DNA of 32,292 nt from Deltaproteobacteria bacterium (GTDB lineage: Bacteria > UBA10199 > SPLOWO2-01-44-7), in NCBI GenBank assembly GCA_030648035.1, contig JAUSII010000101.1:1-32292 (forward strand), written 5' to 3'. This document shows positions 10,904-31,558 of this stretch, piece by piece (the stretch's first letter is position 1; the number at the start of each line of letters is the position of its first letter). Below the pieces are notes generated by a model that was not told where the DNA came from, did no database searches, and saw nothing but the letters and a program-made list of their open reading frames with translations. The position numbers were made by a program, and so were the translations under genes.

Positions 10904-10907
10904 CATT

Positions 10908-11011
10908 CCTTCTCCCCTTGTGGGAGAAGGTGGCCGAAGGCCGGATGAGGGGGATACATTGTCTTCATATGTTTTCCCCTCACCCTAACCCTCTCCCACA
11001 AGGGGAGAGGG
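10908..11011. repeat. REP-like double palindrome between convergent genes
   Basis: Two hairpins flank the element. CCTTCTCCCCTTGTGGGAG runs from 10908 into AAGG at 10930, and CCCTCTCCCACAAGGGGAG runs from 10989 into AGGG at 11011. The inner arms GGATGAGGGG and CCCCTCACCC are also complementary. The sequence type is widespread in bacterial intergenic regions. Placed between convergent genes, it may also act as a bidirectional terminator. Confidence 0.85.
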
Positions 11012-11036
11012 AAATTAAAATGAAATCAAATTCTGC

Positions 11037-12152: not shown

Positions 12153-13415
12153 TTAGCGAATCAACGTCATAGATGCGGGATAAGCACCGACCGGAAATGG
12201 GCCTGCAATCTTTATCTCCGCTTTTGGGTCGAGAAGGATGAGTCCGCTATTTGCAGAGCTTCTCTCCGGTACCCAGAGCAATCCATTTTTGTCGACCAGC
12301 AGATCGGGAAGAAATCCCCCCGGGCTCAAATAAATATTTTTATTCACGACCGTTTTGTTTGTCGGATTGAAGGTGGCTACAATGTTGGCGTTGACTGTCA
12401 ACACCCCCAGTGTGTCGGAGACCAACCTTAAAGTGGAGAGATAGCCGCCAAAATCCTTGTCGTCGATGATGATTCCTTCTGTTTTGTTGGTCGCGGGATC
12501 GACCATTTCAATGCCGCCATAGGTGGTGTTCACATCGTTGTTAAAACTGGAATCAAAATAGCCGGTGTCGGTGATAAAAAGTTTTTTGAGGGTGCTGTTA
12601 TAGGCGATGTCGGTTGGATTGCGCCCTTTAAGAAGAATCGCCTGAACACCGGTTGTCGTCAGGTCGGCATCGATGACGGTGTTGGTACGGGTATCGACCA
12701 AAACGATCTTTCCCTCTGTCGTCGCCCCAAAATTTTTGGAGAGATCCTGCAATAATATATAAAGAGTATCTCCCACGAGCGCCATCTGTGCCGCCCGCGC
12801 CAGCGAATCGCCGTCGTTGTCGGCAAAAGGTTTGAGATCGATGGAGGCTTTGAGAGTTCCGGTGATTGGATCGACAATGAAGAGATCGTCTTTGTTGTTG
12901 GCATCGAGCTGGCTGTCGAGCCTGGTGATGAAGGCTTTGCCATTGGCCACGACCAGATCCTGCGGATTGCTTCCGGCTCCAACCGAATAATTGCCGACGA
13001 TTTTGAACGTCTCCGGGTTGATCGCCTGCACGGTGCCGGTGCGTCCGCGATTGACGGTGAAAAGAATTCCGCCAAAACTTTTGACGATCACATCGCTTGA
13101 GTCGGTCACCGCTTTGGCTTTTGCAACGGGATGCGGAGAGTTTAATCCGATGGTGGCGATGCTTCCGACCGGATCGCTGAAGAAGGCGGCGGCGGCAAAA
13201 ACATTTTCATCGGGACTCAAGTTCAGGCTGGAACCTTCCGCTTCAAGATTCGATGGAGAATCGTTATTCAATTGTTCGACGACGGAGCCACTGCCGCAGG
13301 CTTGTAACAAACAGCATGTCATTGCGAGAAGCCGAAGGCGACGAAGCAATCCAGATAGCACCGGGATTGCTTCGGCCCTTTGGGCCTCGCAATGACACAC
13401 TTGTTTGCATTTCAT
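12153..13415 (-). CDS. Lipoprotein with beta-propeller (YncE/YVTN-like) repeats
   Basis: From ATG 13415 the protein has 420 residues. GGAG upstream supports this start, and ATGA overlaps the receptor stop. A lipobox-like LLQAC places the lipidated Cys at residue 40. The segment before it (residues 7-33) is encoded by a palindromic repeat. A TTG at 13349 inside the repeat would give a more typical short signal (MLRRLRLLAMTCCLLQAC). After the Cys come repeated beta-propeller blades: 'GTVQAINPETFKIVGNYSVG', 'DDLFIVDPITGTLKASI', 'KIVLVDTRTNTVI', 'KLFITDTGYFD'. This is the architecture of YncE-like surface or periplasmic proteins. Being between a TonB receptor and a DUF6580 protein suggests ligand capture or receptor support. 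The ligand is unknown. Confidence 0.8.
   Translation of the reverse strand: MKCKQVCHCEAQRAEAIPVLSGLLRRLRLLAMTCCLLQACGSGSVVEQLNNDSPSNLEAEGSSLNLSPDENVFAAAAFFSDPVGSIATIGLNSPHPVAKAKAVTDSSDVIVKSFGGILFTVNRGRTGTVQAINPETFKIVGNYSVGAGSNPQDLVVANGKAFITRLDSQLDANNKDDLFIVDPITGTLKASIDLKPFADNDGDSLARAAQMALVGDTLYILLQDLSKNFGATTEGKIVLVDTRTNTVIDADLTTTGVQAILLKGRNPTDIAYNSTLKKLFITDTGYFDSSFNNDVNTTYGGIEMVDPATNKTEGIIIDDKDFGGYLSTLRLVSDTLGVLTVNANIVATFNPTNKTVVNKNIYLSPGGFLPDLLVDKNGLLWVPERSSANSGLILLDPKAEIKIAGPFPVGAYPASMTLIR
13318..13396. repeat. Palindromic repeat (GTCATTGCGAG family) in lipoprotein 5' end
   Basis: The element starts GTCATTGCGAGAAGCCGAAG and ends GGGCCTCGCAATGAC, so its ends are inverted copies. An internal GAAGCAATCC pairs with GGGATTGCTTC. 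It is the same family as 23557-23637 and 27796-27891. It lies entirely inside the first 33 codons of the lipoprotein gene. Confidence 0.9.
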
Positions 13416-23548: not shown

Positions 23549-23556
23549 AATTGTAT

Positions 23557-23637
23557 GTCATTGCGAGGCCCTTTAGGGCCGTGGCAATCCCGATGATTAC
23601 CGAGATTGCTTTGTCGCTTACGCTCCTCGCAATGACA
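23557..23637. repeat. Complete palindromic repeat (GTCATTGCGAG family)
   Basis: The element begins GTCATTGCGAGGCCCTTTAG and ends GCTCCTCGCAATGAC. It lies between two divergent genes, 8 bp upstream of the start of the transglutaminase-like gene and just upstream of the lexA promoter. Confidence 0.9.
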
Positions 23638-23708: not shown

Positions 23709-24305
23709 ATGTTATCCAAAAGACAGAAGCAAATATTTGATTTTATTAGTAAATTTGTTGATGTTCACGCCTATGCCCCCAGCCTTGAAGAAATTGCTTC
23801 CCACTTCAAACTTTCCGCTGTTTCCACCGTTCATTACCATATCAGCGAGCTGATCAAAAAAGGGATGTTGGCCAAGCGCTGGAACGCGGGGCGCTCATTA
23901 GAAGTGGTGGGGCACACGGCATCACTCGCGGTGGTTGTCCCTCTGCTCGGTGTTATCGCCGCAGGCAAACCGATTGAAGCGATCGAACAGGAAGAGACAA
24001 TCGAGATTCCACCTTCATTGATGGGTCGCAAAGATACTTATGTTTTGCGCGTGCAGGGCGACTCGATGATTGAAGAACATATTCGTGATGGTGATTATGT
24101 CGTGGTGGAGCGCCGTGACACCGCCGATAACGGCGAAACGGTGGTGGCCCTTCTGAACGGCAACGAGGCGACGCTCAAAAAATTCTATCGCGAAAAAGAT
24201 CGCATCCGCCTGCAACCAGCCAATCCGACCATGTCGCCCATTTATGTTCGAGAAGAAGATTGCACCATTCAGGGTGTGGTGATTGCGATATTGAGGAAGT
24301 TCTAG
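23709..24305 (+). CDS. lexA: LexA SOS repressor
   Basis: The protein has 198 residues. The N-terminal winged helix ('LSKRQKQIFDFISKFVDVHA', 'APSLEEIASHFKLSAVSTVH') binds DNA. The cleavage site is Ala-Gly in 'LLGVIAAGKPIEA'. The catalytic Ser is in 'VQGDSMIEEHI' and the Lys in 'ATLKKFYRE', as in the LexA/UmuD S24 peptidase family. RecA-stimulated self-cleavage would derepress the SOS regulon. The ATG at 23709 matches the usual LexA N-terminus (MLSKRQ). The upstream alternative at 23667 would start before the promoter. The stop codon TAG (24303-24305) overlaps the first bases of the AGTGCGAT repeat. dinB lies downstream, beyond the inserted cassette. Confidence 0.96.
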   Translation: MLSKRQKQIFDFISKFVDVHAYAPSLEEIASHFKLSAVSTVHYHISELIKKGMLAKRWNAGRSLEVVGHTASLAVVVPLLGVIAAGKPIEAIEQEETIEIPPSLMGRKDTYVLRVQGDSMIEEHIRDGDYVVVERRDTADNGETVVALLNGNEATLKKFYREKDRIRLQPANPTMSPIYVREEDCTIQGVVIAILRKF

Positions 24306-24323
24306 TGCGATAGTGCGATGGTA

Positions 24324-24351
24324 CTTGGTACCTCGTACTTAGTACTTCGTG
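24324..24351 (+). repeat. Left 28-bp inverted repeat of the cassette
   Basis: It begins CTTGGTACCTCGTAC and ends TTAGTACTTCGTG, an exact reverse complement of 24718-24745. It is itself built from GTACTT-type units. Confidence 0.9.
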
Positions 24352-24361
24352 AGGGAAAAAT

Positions 24362-24730
24362 ATGGGGATATATAATTATCGGGAATTAGATATTTGGAAA
24401 AAAGGGATGACAATTTGTGAAAAGGTCTATTTTCTTACCGCTTCTTTTCCTTCTCATGAACAGTACGGGGTGATCTCACAACTTCGTCGCGCTGCTGTGT
24501 CTGTTCCCGCCAATATTGCCGAAGGATTTGGACGAAAATCAAATGGAGATTTTAAAAGGTTTTTAAACATAGCGACAGGTTCATTGTTGGAAGTGGAAAC
24601 CCATATCGAATTGAGCAGACGATTACACTATTGCGCGGATGTTGAAGCGGCAAATCTTTTTGAAGAAACAAATCATCTGGGCAAGATGATGACCCGGTTC
24701 ACACAAAAAATACCAAACACGAAGTACTAA
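24362..24730 (+). CDS. Four-helix-bundle protein, 23S rRNA IVP family
   Basis: The protein has 122 residues. 'YNYRELDIWKKGMTICEKVY' and 'QLRRAAVSVPANIAEGFGRK' are the hallmark helix 1 and helix 2-3 motifs of the family (often annotated TIGR02436). 'FLNIATGSLLEVETHIELSR' is helix 3. The family was first seen encoded in intervening sequences of 23S rRNA and is related in fold to Avd of diversity-generating retroelements; its biochemical role is unsettled. GAGGG seven bases before the ATG is a good ribosome binding site. The last residues (PNTKY) and the stop are encoded by the right inverted repeat. It sits between lexA and dinB, so it may be expressed with the SOS genes. Confidence 0.9.
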   Translation: MGIYNYRELDIWKKGMTICEKVYFLTASFPSHEQYGVISQLRRAAVSVPANIAEGFGRKSNGDFKRFLNIATGSLLEVETHIELSRRLHYCADVEAANLFEETNHLGKMMTRFTQKIPNTKY

Positions 24731-24745
24731 GTACGAGGTACCAAG
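24718..24745 (-). repeat. Right 28-bp inverted repeat of the cassette
   Basis: It is the exact reverse complement of 24324-24351. It contains the stop codon of the four-helix-bundle gene. It also contains GAGG about 11 bp before the dinB ATG, so it may supply the dinB ribosome binding site. Confidence 0.9.
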
Positions 24746-24749
24746 CACT

Positions 24750-25928
24750 ATGATCAATTGTGACAAAAAACTAACCATTCGCCCGCGTGCGGTGGCAACG
24801 CCCATGCCGGGGCAGAGAACTTTTTTGCATGTCGATCTCGATGCTTTTTTTGCTTCCGTTGAACAGATCAAAAATCCAAAACTCAAAGGCAAACCGGTGA
24901 TTGTCGGCGGGCGCAATTCGCGGCGCGGTGTGGTGGCGGCCGCTTCTTATGAAGCCAAGCGCTGTGGTGTGACGACCGGCATGCCGTGGCTTGAAGCGCA
25001 ATCCAAATGTCCCAGCGCCGTTTTTTTGCCGGCCGATTTTGAGGCCTACGCCGAATATTCTGAAAAGGTTCAAAAAATTCTGGGGAAAATTGCGCCGGTG
25101 GTGGCGCAAGCCTCTGTGGACGAATCTTATCTCGACCTGACCGGTTGTCAGCGTCTCTACAAAACACCGCGGGAGGCGGGAGAAAAAATCTATCGGGCTG
25201 TGAAAGACCAGACAGGACTCTCCATCTCGATCGGCATTGCCGGTTCGCAGTCGGTGGCCAAGATGGCGTCCCGTTTGGCCAAGCCCAGGGGGATGGTGGA
25301 GATTCCGAAAGGGGCGGAGAAAAATTTTCTGGCATCTCTGCCGGTGGAGGCGATGCCCGGCATCGGTCCCCAGTTGGGGGAGAAGTTGCGCGGCATGGGG
25401 ATTGTCACATTGGGCCAACTGGCCAAAGTGCCGAACGATCTGCTTCGCGCCTCCTTTGGTGTGTATGGCCCCTTTCTTCGGGCGAAGGCGCGCGGGGAAG
25501 ATACCTGGGAACTGGAAGTGACCGAAACCATCAAATCGATCGGCAAACAGGAGACTTTTCCCGAAGATGTTCGTGATTTTGCGATTTTAAAACGCAAATT
25601 GTTCGAATTGGTCGAAAAAGTGGGGCAAAAATTGCGTGAAGAAAATCTTTACGCCCGCCGGGTGGCGGTGAAGGTGAGATACGCCGACTTTTCAGAAGAG
25701 GGGACCTCTAAAACATTCAGAGACCCGACCCATTTTGACCGTGTCTTGTTTCAATATGCCGAGGAGTTGCTCTCCAACACCGTTCGTCTTGAGCGTTCCA
25801 TCAGACTCATCGGTTTTTCAGTTCAAGAATTGAGTCAACAGACCCCCCAGCTCGATCTTTTCAGAACACCCAAGGCCGAACGGTGGGAGAGGTTTTATTC
25901 CAGCCTCGATAAAATTCGCTCCTTGTAG
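24750..25928 (+). CDS. dinB: DNA polymerase IV (Y-family translesion polymerase)
   Basis: The protein has 392 residues. 'FLHVDLDAFFASVEQIKNPK' holds the first catalytic Asp and the steric-gate region, and 'AQASVDESYLDLTG' holds the second catalytic acidic pair. 'SISIGIAGSQSVAKMASRLA' and the HhH motif 'AMPGIGPQLGEKLRGMG' follow. The C-terminal 'PQLDLFR' is a beta-clamp-binding motif. It performs error-prone bypass synthesis at lesions. Its placement after lexA suggests SOS control, although the cassette now separates them. The ATG at 24750 abuts the right repeat. An internal ATG at 24804 (MPGQRTF) would match the usual DinB N-terminus better but has no clear ribosome binding site. Confidence 0.95.
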   Translation: MINCDKKLTIRPRAVATPMPGQRTFLHVDLDAFFASVEQIKNPKLKGKPVIVGGRNSRRGVVAAASYEAKRCGVTTGMPWLEAQSKCPSAVFLPADFEAYAEYSEKVQKILGKIAPVVAQASVDESYLDLTGCQRLYKTPREAGEKIYRAVKDQTGLSISIGIAGSQSVAKMASRLAKPRGMVEIPKGAEKNFLASLPVEAMPGIGPQLGEKLRGMGIVTLGQLAKVPNDLLRASFGVYGPFLRAKARGEDTWELEVTETIKSIGKQETFPEDVRDFAILKRKLFELVEKVGQKLREENLYARRVAVKVRYADFSEEGTSKTFRDPTHFDRVLFQYAEELLSNTVRLERSIRLIGFSVQELSQQTPQLDLFRTPKAERWERFYSSLDKIRSL

Positions 25929-29648: not shown

Positions 29649-30122
29649 ATGTCATTCGAATTTACAACCGAGAATAAGAAAAAGTTTGAGGAGACGCTAA
29701 CGCGCTATCCACAAAAAAAAGCGGCTCTGCTTCCGGCATTGTGGCTGGTGCAGGAGCAGTTGGGTTGGATTTCTCCCGAGGCGATGGAATATCTGGCGCG
29801 TCTTTTGGAAATGACACCGGCTTATGTCTACGAGACGGCGACTTTTTATACCATGTATAATAAGAAGCCGATCGGACGCCATCACATTCAGGTCTGCAAC
29901 AGCGTCTGCTGTTGTCTGCGCGGGAGCGAAGAGACGGTCAAATATATCCAGAAAAAATTGGAGATTGAAGTCGGTGAGTCGACCCCGGACGGGCGTTTTC
30001 ATCTCTCGGCGGTGGAGTGCCTCGGCTCCTGTGGCACCGCGCCGATGATGCAGATTGATAATGATTATTACGAAGATCTGAATGCAGAGAAGGTTGATGC
30101 GATATTGGAAAAGATGAAATAG
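29649..30122 (+). CDS. nuoE: NADH-quinone oxidoreductase subunit E (2Fe-2S)
   Basis: The protein has 157 residues with a thioredoxin-like fold. The 2Fe-2S ligands are in 'HIQVCNSVCCCLRGSE' and 'ECLGSCGTAPMM'. 'EYLARLLEMTPAYVYETATF' is the usual N-terminal helical motif. It belongs to the NADH-oxidising module with NuoF. GGGGGAG upstream is a good ribosome binding site. Its TAG stop codon (30120-30122) overlaps the first two bases of a palindromic repeat that separates it from nuoF. Confidence 0.96.
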   Translation: MSFEFTTENKKKFEETLTRYPQKKAALLPALWLVQEQLGWISPEAMEYLARLLEMTPAYVYETATFYTMYNKKPIGRHHIQVCNSVCCCLRGSEETVKYIQKKLEIEVGESTPDGRFHLSAVECLGSCGTAPMMQIDNDYYEDLNAEKVDAILEKMK

Positions 30123-30197
30123 TGCGATGGTGCGATAGTGCTTAGTACTTGGTGCGAATATAAATCTAAGTACCAAGTACTATCGCACTATCGCACT
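30121..30197. repeat. AGTGCGAT-family palindrome between nuoE and nuoF
   Basis: The 77-bp element has 32-bp imperfect inverted arms. The left arm starts AGTGCGATGGTGCGATAGTG at the nuoE stop and the right arm ends CTATCGCACTATCGCACT. The arms contain GTACTTGG-type cores also found in the cassette repeats. Only 8 bp remain before the nuoF ATG, so the usual ribosome binding site region is largely replaced by repeat. Confidence 0.92.
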
Positions 30198-30205
30198 GAT
30201 AAATT

Positions 30206-31495
30206 ATGGAACAAATTTTAAGCAAAAGTTGGCGCATTGTGAATCAACGCAACATGGACGTCGCTTTGATGCACGGCGCCTATGATTCGCTCAAGAAAAT
30301 TTTCAAGATGACTCCGGCCGAAGTAACCGAGACGGTTAAAGCCTCCGGCCTGCGCGGGCGCGGGGGGGCCGGTTTTTCCACTGGCACCAAGTGGACGTTT
30401 ATTCCCAAAGACAATAAGAAGCCGGTTTATCTTATTAATAATTTCGACGAGAGCGAACCCGGCACTTTCAAGGATCGTGCGATTGCGGAGAAAGATCCGC
30501 ACATGATGATCGAGGGGATGATCATCGCCTCTTATGCGATCGGCGCCAACACCGCCTATATCTATATTCGCGGGGAATATTATCGCCAGTGGGAGATTAT
30601 TGAAAAAGCGTTGGCCGAGGCTTATGCAAAAGGTTTTCTGGGAAAAAATATTCAAGGCTCCGGATTTCATCTCGATATTTTTCAACATCGCGGAGCGGGG
30701 GCCTACATTTGCGGCGAAGAGACGGCGCTTCTCTCATCTCTCGAAGGAGGAAGAGGTTATCCAAGAATCAAACCGCCCTTTCCGGCGATCGAGGGGGCGT
30801 GGCGCTCGCCAACCATTGTGAATAACGTCGAGACTCTGACCAATCTTCCCTACATCATCAATAATGGTGCGGATGCTTTCAAAAAATTCGGGACCGAAAA
30901 AAGTCCCGGCACCAAACTGATTTCGGCCTCGGGCCATATTGAAAAACCGGGTGTTTATGAAGTGGCGATGGGATTGCCGATCCACACTTTTTTAAACGAA
31001 CAGCTGGGCGGCATCTGGAAGGGTCGCAAACTCAAAGCGCTGGTGCCGGGCGGTTCGTCGTTTCCCGTGCTTACGGCAGACGAGGCGCTCAAAACAAATA
31101 TCGATTTTGAATCTTGCGCGGCGAGCGGCACATCGCTCGGCTCCGGCGGTTTTTATGTGATGGACGACACGACCTGCATGGTGCGCATGCTGATGTTCAC
31201 CGCAAAATTTTATGAACACGAGTCGTGCGGACAATGCACGCCGTGCCGCGAGGGGACCGGCTGGGTTTCGCAAATCGTGCGGCGTATTGAGGAAGGTCAT
31301 GGACGCGAACGCGATCTGCAAGTATTGCTCGATGTCTGTAATAATATGATGAACGGTCGCACCATCTGCGTTTTTGCCGACGCCCTGGCCATGCCGGTCA
31401 TCAGCTATCTGACAAAGTTTAAACACGAGTTTGAGGATCACGTGAGACTGGGGAGATGTCCGATGAGCGGGAAGTGCGATAGTGCGATGGTGTGA
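30206..31495 (+). CDS. nuoF: NADH-quinone oxidoreductase subunit F (NADH/FMN binding)
   Basis: The protein has 429 residues. 'LRGRGGAGFSTGTKWTF' binds FMN and 'HRGAGAYICGEETALLSSLE' belongs to the NADH/FMN site. 'ESCGQCTPCREGT' plus a later Cys hold the N3 4Fe-4S cluster. It oxidises NADH and passes electrons to NuoE/NuoG. No Shine-Dalgarno site lies in the 8 bp between the upstream repeat and the ATG. The last seven residues (KCDSAMV) and the stop codon are encoded by the downstream repeat, so the native C-terminus has been altered. Confidence 0.97.
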   Translation: MEQILSKSWRIVNQRNMDVALMHGAYDSLKKIFKMTPAEVTETVKASGLRGRGGAGFSTGTKWTFIPKDNKKPVYLINNFDESEPGTFKDRAIAEKDPHMMIEGMIIASYAIGANTAYIYIRGEYYRQWEIIEKALAEAYAKGFLGKNIQGSGFHLDIFQHRGAGAYICGEETALLSSLEGGRGYPRIKPPFPAIEGAWRSPTIVNNVETLTNLPYIINNGADAFKKFGTEKSPGTKLISASGHIEKPGVYEVAMGLPIHTFLNEQLGGIWKGRKLKALVPGGSSFPVLTADEALKTNIDFESCAASGTSLGSGGFYVMDDTTCMVRMLMFTAKFYEHESCGQCTPCREGTGWVSQIVRRIEEGHGRERDLQVLLDVCNNMMNGRTICVFADALAMPVISYLTKFKHEFEDHVRLGRCPMSGKCDSAMV

Positions 31496-31558
31496 TGGTG
31501 CGATAGTACTTGGTGCAAATATCAATCTAAGTACCAAGTACCATCGCACTATCGCACT
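31473..31558. repeat. AGTGCGAT-family palindrome spanning the nuoF stop codon
   Basis: The 86-bp element starts AGTGCGATAGTGCGATGG and ends CCATCGCACTATCGCACT. The left arm holds four 8-bp RGTGYGAT units, more than the nuoE-nuoF copy. The element includes the nuoF stop (31493-31495) and ends 8 bp before the nuoG ATG, the same distance as at nuoF. Confidence 0.92.

Follow-up and report, generated by a model that had tools for sequence, protein, structure and literature searches.

Intervening sequences (IVS) of 23S rRNA genes in Leptospira and Coxiella consist of one PF05635 (S23p/IVP) open reading frame bounded by inverted repeats that form a long stem, which is 28 bp in Coxiella. They have been called selfish elements, and their mobility was proposed in 1993, although the Coxiella IVS protein appears not to be made in vivo (PMC4990558). 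Heptameric intergenic repeats have been described from Xanthomonas (GGGAATC, including about 70 convergent pairs) and Nostoc (GGGGA(C/T)T) without an explanation of their origin; Rehm et al. 2015 (PMC4692102) generally found no association with mobile elements, and the text consulted does not mention IVP. REP/BIME palindromes and their RAYT genes (REPtrons) likewise combine one gene flanked by inverted repeats with many gene-less palindromes. The four-helix-bundle fold of IVP is shared by XCC0516 (PDB 2gsc), which has no known function and is described as a homopentamer (PMC4990558), and by Avd of diversity-generating retroelements (4dwl, 8ub7). Here, we describe an IVP gene that lies between protein-coding genes of an operon and is flanked by arms made of tandem 7- and 8-bp words. 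Literature searches, which covered open-access text only, found no description of such an element.

The window analysed is a 32,292-nucleotide stretch (contig JAUSII010000101.1, assembly GCA_030648035.1) of a deltaproteobacterial genome, here named G000, which is 95.9% complete, consists of 135 contigs and has 5.8% contamination. The relevant features, with positions in the window, are as follows.

24303..24752, forward strand: junction of the lexA stop and the dinB start, which holds the element
24304..24351, forward strand: left arm, reading AGTGCGAT AGTGCGAT GGTACTT GGTACCT CGTACTT AGTACTT CGTG, i.e. two tandem 8-mers followed by tandem 7-mers
24324..24351, no strand: left copy of a perfect 28-bp inverted repeat
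24351..24361, forward strand: Shine-Dalgarno-like sequence (GAGGG) and spacer before the IVP start codon, inferred from the sequence
24362..24730, forward strand: IVP gene, 122 aa, PF05635/TIGR02436, predicted four-helix bundle
24718..24749, reverse strand: right arm (perfect inverted repeat copy 24718-24745, array to 24749), containing the IVP stop codon and abutting the dinB ATG at 24750
30121..30197, no strand: gene-less palindrome of the same word family, between nuoE and nuoF
31473..31558, no strand: gene-less palindrome of the same word family, between nuoF and nuoG

The initial annotation had described a gene packaged between perfect 28-bp inverted repeats, with its ribosome binding site just inside one repeat and its stop codon inside the other, in a segment that fills the lexA-dinB junction and is related to gene-less palindromes in the nuo operon; this observation was confirmed. 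The longest perfect inverted repeat within 600 bp in 60 Markov simulations of the window was 14 bp. The open reading frame matched PF05635 (E 6e-38) and TIGR02436 'four helix bundle protein', and was the only one between the arms. The lexA stop codon TAG (24303-24305) borrows AG from the first repeat unit, the IVP stop codon TAA (24728-24730) lies inside the right arm, and the dinB ATG directly follows the last unit. As a refinement, the right arm lacks the outer 8-mers that are present in the left arm. The two palindromes fill the nuoE|nuoF and nuoF|nuoG gaps, and the one at 30121 would fold as RNA into a hairpin of -51.1 kcal/mol (z -10.6).

Genome G000 contains one strong IVP gene and one weak PF05635 relative below the family cut-off (L033, contig C53, 591-875), but about twenty gene-less elements made of the same words. 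Complete ones are 64-168 bp long, with the 8-mers outside, the 7-mers inside and a short loop. All 13 with two close neighbours lie between co-directional genes, usually within about 20 bp of the stop codon and start codon. In two of the palindromes of this genome (L288:1013-1180 and L289:962-1116) one arm has grown to many units, suggesting slippage after insertion.

A comparison of filled and empty sites had been put forward in advance as a test of mobility, with a fixed lexA-IVP-dinB order in all relatives as the outcome that would speak against it. Relatives G001, G002 and G004 have no IVP element at this junction: the lexA stop and dinB start overlap or abut in G002 and G004, while in G001 the junction holds a different palindrome. 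In G000 the cassette replaced about 20 bp, including the first codons of dinB. No target-site duplication was seen by eye at the junctions examined, an observation that does not settle whether insertion produces one. A second junction, between genes for a thiolase and a DUF35 protein, has overlapping stop and start codons in G001 and G003 and abutting ones in G002, whereas it is filled in G005 by an IVP cassette with GGACTCTC-type arms and in G004 by one with GGTTCTT arms and an IVP only 50% identical. G003 and G005 belong to one genus, and G003 carries a 90%-identical IVP with the same word between two other genes. This is the pattern expected of movement, and of a junction hit independently. 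In G000 the thiolase|DUF35 junction holds an unrelated palindrome (L358, GTCATCCTGAGG...), similar to a second palindrome family of the GTCATTGCGAGG...GCAATCC type that occurs in the window at 23556-23637 and 13328-13388 and of which a copy (L073) fills the lexA|dinB junction in G001.

The absence of repeats around the same gene family in relatives had also been named as evidence that would count against the element. A scan of named genomes gave 80 IVP loci from Bacteroidota, Cyanobacteria, Planctomycetota, Chloroflexota, Acidobacteria, Proteobacteria, Nitrospirae, Clostridia and others, to which relatives, cyanobacteria and genomes with multiple IVP genes were added. Of 144 distinct IVP loci, 96 (67%) have a flanking inverted repeat with a score ≥14 (+1 match, -2 mismatch), against 6 of 213 neighbouring ORFs with the same geometry and 0 of 720 random windows (Fisher p 2e-42); the other 48 show no strong inverted repeat. 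A later gammaproteobacterial set gave 20 of 27. The arms are periodic, with a best period of 7 in 60 of 88 and of 8 in 22 of 88, against 7-10% for each period in shuffled arms. Arms hold a median of about five units (upstream 5.3, downstream 4.7). The strand reading into the gene is richer in G than C in 71 of 83 arms, the same convergent polarity as the paired Xanthomonas repeats (PMC4692102).

The repeat word belongs to the element rather than to the genome. There are 53 distinct words among 59 seven-mer arms and 22 among 24 eight-mer arms. Six IVP genes in cyanobacterial genome G149 and six in G004 carry different words, where arms could be read. Over 23 within-genome pairs the arms are no more alike (0.178) than between genomes (0.173), while the two arms of one element average 0.77, although elements were selected for having an inverted repeat. 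Between proteins above 80% identity the word is mostly shared (0.80), at 60-80% partly (0.34), and below about 60% similarity is at background, so that conservation of the word with the protein over long distances was rejected. The rapid change of the word while both arms stay matched is itself a puzzle.

In the three genomes searched for this, namely G000, Phormidium G060 and gammaproteobacterium G547, gene-less arrays with the IVP's own word are dispersed genome-wide. In G060, 176 matches of GGGAGTC x2 were found against 13 for the reversed control, and 0-8 in five other genomes; the gene-less arrays inspected there are mostly single-direction rather than palindromic. In G547, 29 exact matches of GGGAATC x2 were found against 0 for the control, and these arrays often form convergent pairs. 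The IVP of G547 (L319), which has GGGAATC arms and a disrupted frame, sits between genes that read as accB and accC by eye. Its word is the heptamer reported from Xanthomonas, and the cyanobacterial IVP L233 has GGGGACT arms, a word reported from Nostoc. Xanthomonas and Nostoc PCC7120 themselves were not tested. A search of 369 gammaproteobacterial genomes gave no hit above 64% identity to XCC0516, so Xanthomonas was apparently not reached. In Thiohalocapsa (G062), 199 matches to the reversed control pattern CTGAGGG x2 (CTGAGGGCTGAGGG) were found, but none of its three IVP genes has that word, and this is unexplained.

Some genomes hold 10-18 IVP matches, many in divergent pairs around a central terminator-like hairpin (L154-L173, in G053, G011, G031 and G040), which may represent a sub-type. 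Copies at different places are 88-94% identical in G011 and up to 99% in G053. On the sides examined, the identity commonly stops at or near the outer edge of a degenerate repeat array, with unrelated sequence beyond. L161 is a copy of L155 that lacks about 230 internal bases, apparently removed between short direct repeats (GAAGGNTACGGA). So gene and arrays multiply together and give deleted derivatives.

A shared transposase or RAYT gene, which the initial annotation had proposed to look for, is not supported. No PF01797 (Y1_Tnp) match at E ≤ 0.001 was detected in G000, although all six relatives searched have one. The 113 neighbouring genes of loci with inverted repeats fall into 152 Pfam families, of which the commonest are subunits of multi-gene enzymes (methylmalonyl-CoA mutase, thiolase and complex I); these are ordinary operon genes, and no transposase or reverse transcriptase is among the 25 commonest families. 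No parental insertion sequence with the same ends was recognised, but a genome-wide screen for insertion sequences was not made. IVP genes lie between co-directional neighbours more often than other genes of the same loci (96/134 vs 167/305, p = 0.001), a figure that is approximate because the gene caller was simple. The locus meets the IVS layout of a PF05635 ORF between complementary ends, but it lies at the lexA|dinB junction rather than inside a 16S or 23S rRNA gene, and the window has no Rfam match. At 20 IVP loci no rRNA was found, only tRNA neighbours; IVP genes lie close beside or between tRNA genes at L055, L057, L058, L059, L060 and L329, a possible link to the insertions in rRNA. 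The tandem 7-mers, often in convergent pairs dispersed between genes, agree with the description of the heptameric repeats of the Xanthomonas/Nostoc type.

AlphaFold2 gave a confident four-helix bundle for the IVP protein (pLDDT 94.9). Its closest solved structures are XCC0516 (2gsc), 2rld and, more weakly, Avd, alone and in the ribonucleoprotein with the reverse transcriptase. Nearly invariant residues include W12, Y23, Q40, R43, S47, N51, E54, G55 and E77, and no catalytic domain is recognised. No reverse transcriptase, template or variable repeat was seen beside the gene, whose neighbours are lexA and dinB.

We conclude, with good but not complete confidence, that the segment 24304-24749 is a copy of a mobile element: a single IVP gene whose terminal inverted repeats are short arrays of tandem 7- or 8-bp words private to that element, and whose MITE-like derivatives are the gene-less palindromes. 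The interpretation of the initial annotation, a small mobile cassette with MITE-like derivatives, was supported, whereas a shared RAYT was not; the analysis did not distinguish between autonomous and trans-mobilised movement. That the arms are heptamer or octamer arrays with an element-specific word, in some cases matching published repeats, had not been foreseen. The comparisons themselves show that the element is an insertion, that the arms have this form across phyla, that the word goes with the element, that multicopy elements end in such arrays, and that gene-less or deleted derivatives occur; movement was seen only by comparing genomes. By contrast, it is an inference from the fold, from the coupling of word to gene and from the unit number near five that the IVP protein, expected from XCC0516 and Avd to be a pentameric, nucleic-acid-binding ring, recognises its own arrays as hairpins or single strands, perhaps one unit per subunit, and directs copying or insertion together with host enzymes. 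Neither the enzyme that cuts and joins DNA nor the moving form, DNA or RNA, was identified. In this view, insertions would survive mostly at stop|start junctions inside operons, where the stem in the transcript can be tolerated or cut by RNase III, as for 23S rRNA intervening sequences (PMC4990558), and survival in operon gaps also fits selection against other sites; the stem is predicted, and its cleavage was not assayed here.

Other explanations were considered less likely. Movement in trans by a RAYT (Y1/HUH) transposase that recognises the hairpins, with IVP as a passenger, would fit the REPtron-like anatomy and the frequency of Y1_Tnp genes in related genomes, but is very unlikely given the lack of a detectable RAYT in G000 despite one IVP element and about 20 palindromes, the lack of a recurring transposase, and the tie of the word to the individual IVP gene. 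It is also unlikely that the arrays are host features, such as slippage-born repeats or operon hairpins acting as attenuators or mRNA stabilisers, which IVP uses or merely tolerates. The strong variation in unit number in L288 and L289, the co-directional operon gaps and the stable RNA hairpin are in line with that idea; however, the two arms, about 370 bp apart, are copies of each other including the order of variant units, which independent slippage would not give, and the idea is already weakened by the empty sites and relocation within a genus, and by the joint multiplication of gene and arrays in G011 and G053.

An RNA-level element, in which the stem-loop transcript with the IVP reading frame is the moving form, reverse transcribed by a host or DGR-like enzyme, with 23S rRNA intervening sequences as copies that landed in rRNA, is likewise doubtful. 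It draws on the similarity to Avd, the partner of the DGR reverse transcriptase, the shared IVS layout with a 28-bp stem (PMC4990558), the co-directional insertion and the tRNA-gene neighbourhoods, but no reverse transcriptase family recurs beside IVP genes, the Coxiella IVS protein appears not to be made in vivo (PMC4990558), and no cDNA-like signature was seen. Chance or an assembly artefact, conceivable for a fragmented genome with some contamination, is refuted by the cross-genome statistics and by recurrence in named isolate genomes and many phyla.

We regard the locus as an IVS-like IVP element, which differs from described intervening sequences in its location outside rRNA, from REPtrons in lacking the Y1 transposase, and from a MITE family in having no known parent. 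A more far-reaching possibility, which is not excluded but which we consider tentative, is a categorically new class of bacterial mobile element, spread over many phyla and without any known recombinase, in which a pentameric four-helix-bundle protein works with a private set of tandem 7/8-bp words of about five units per arm; it would be the source of the heptameric repeats of Xanthomonas, cyanobacteria and others, with 23S rRNA intervening sequences as one branch. PF05635 is a large family of unknown function with two solved structures, whose genes have been read as rRNA-linked, as cas-associated (PMC3936711) and as immune-linked (PMC10053308). If they are solo mobile elements that drop into operons, many such associations could be insertion by-products; an IVP gene between cmr3 and cmr2 of Pleurocapsa (PMC3936711), for example, may be a cassette dropped into a cas operon. 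It would also give a source for the heptameric repeats and make the proposed mobility of IVS testable. The window contains another inverted repeat at 10906-11013, TTCCTTCTCCCCTTGTGGGAGAAGGT, which is 92% complementary with 56 nt between the arms.
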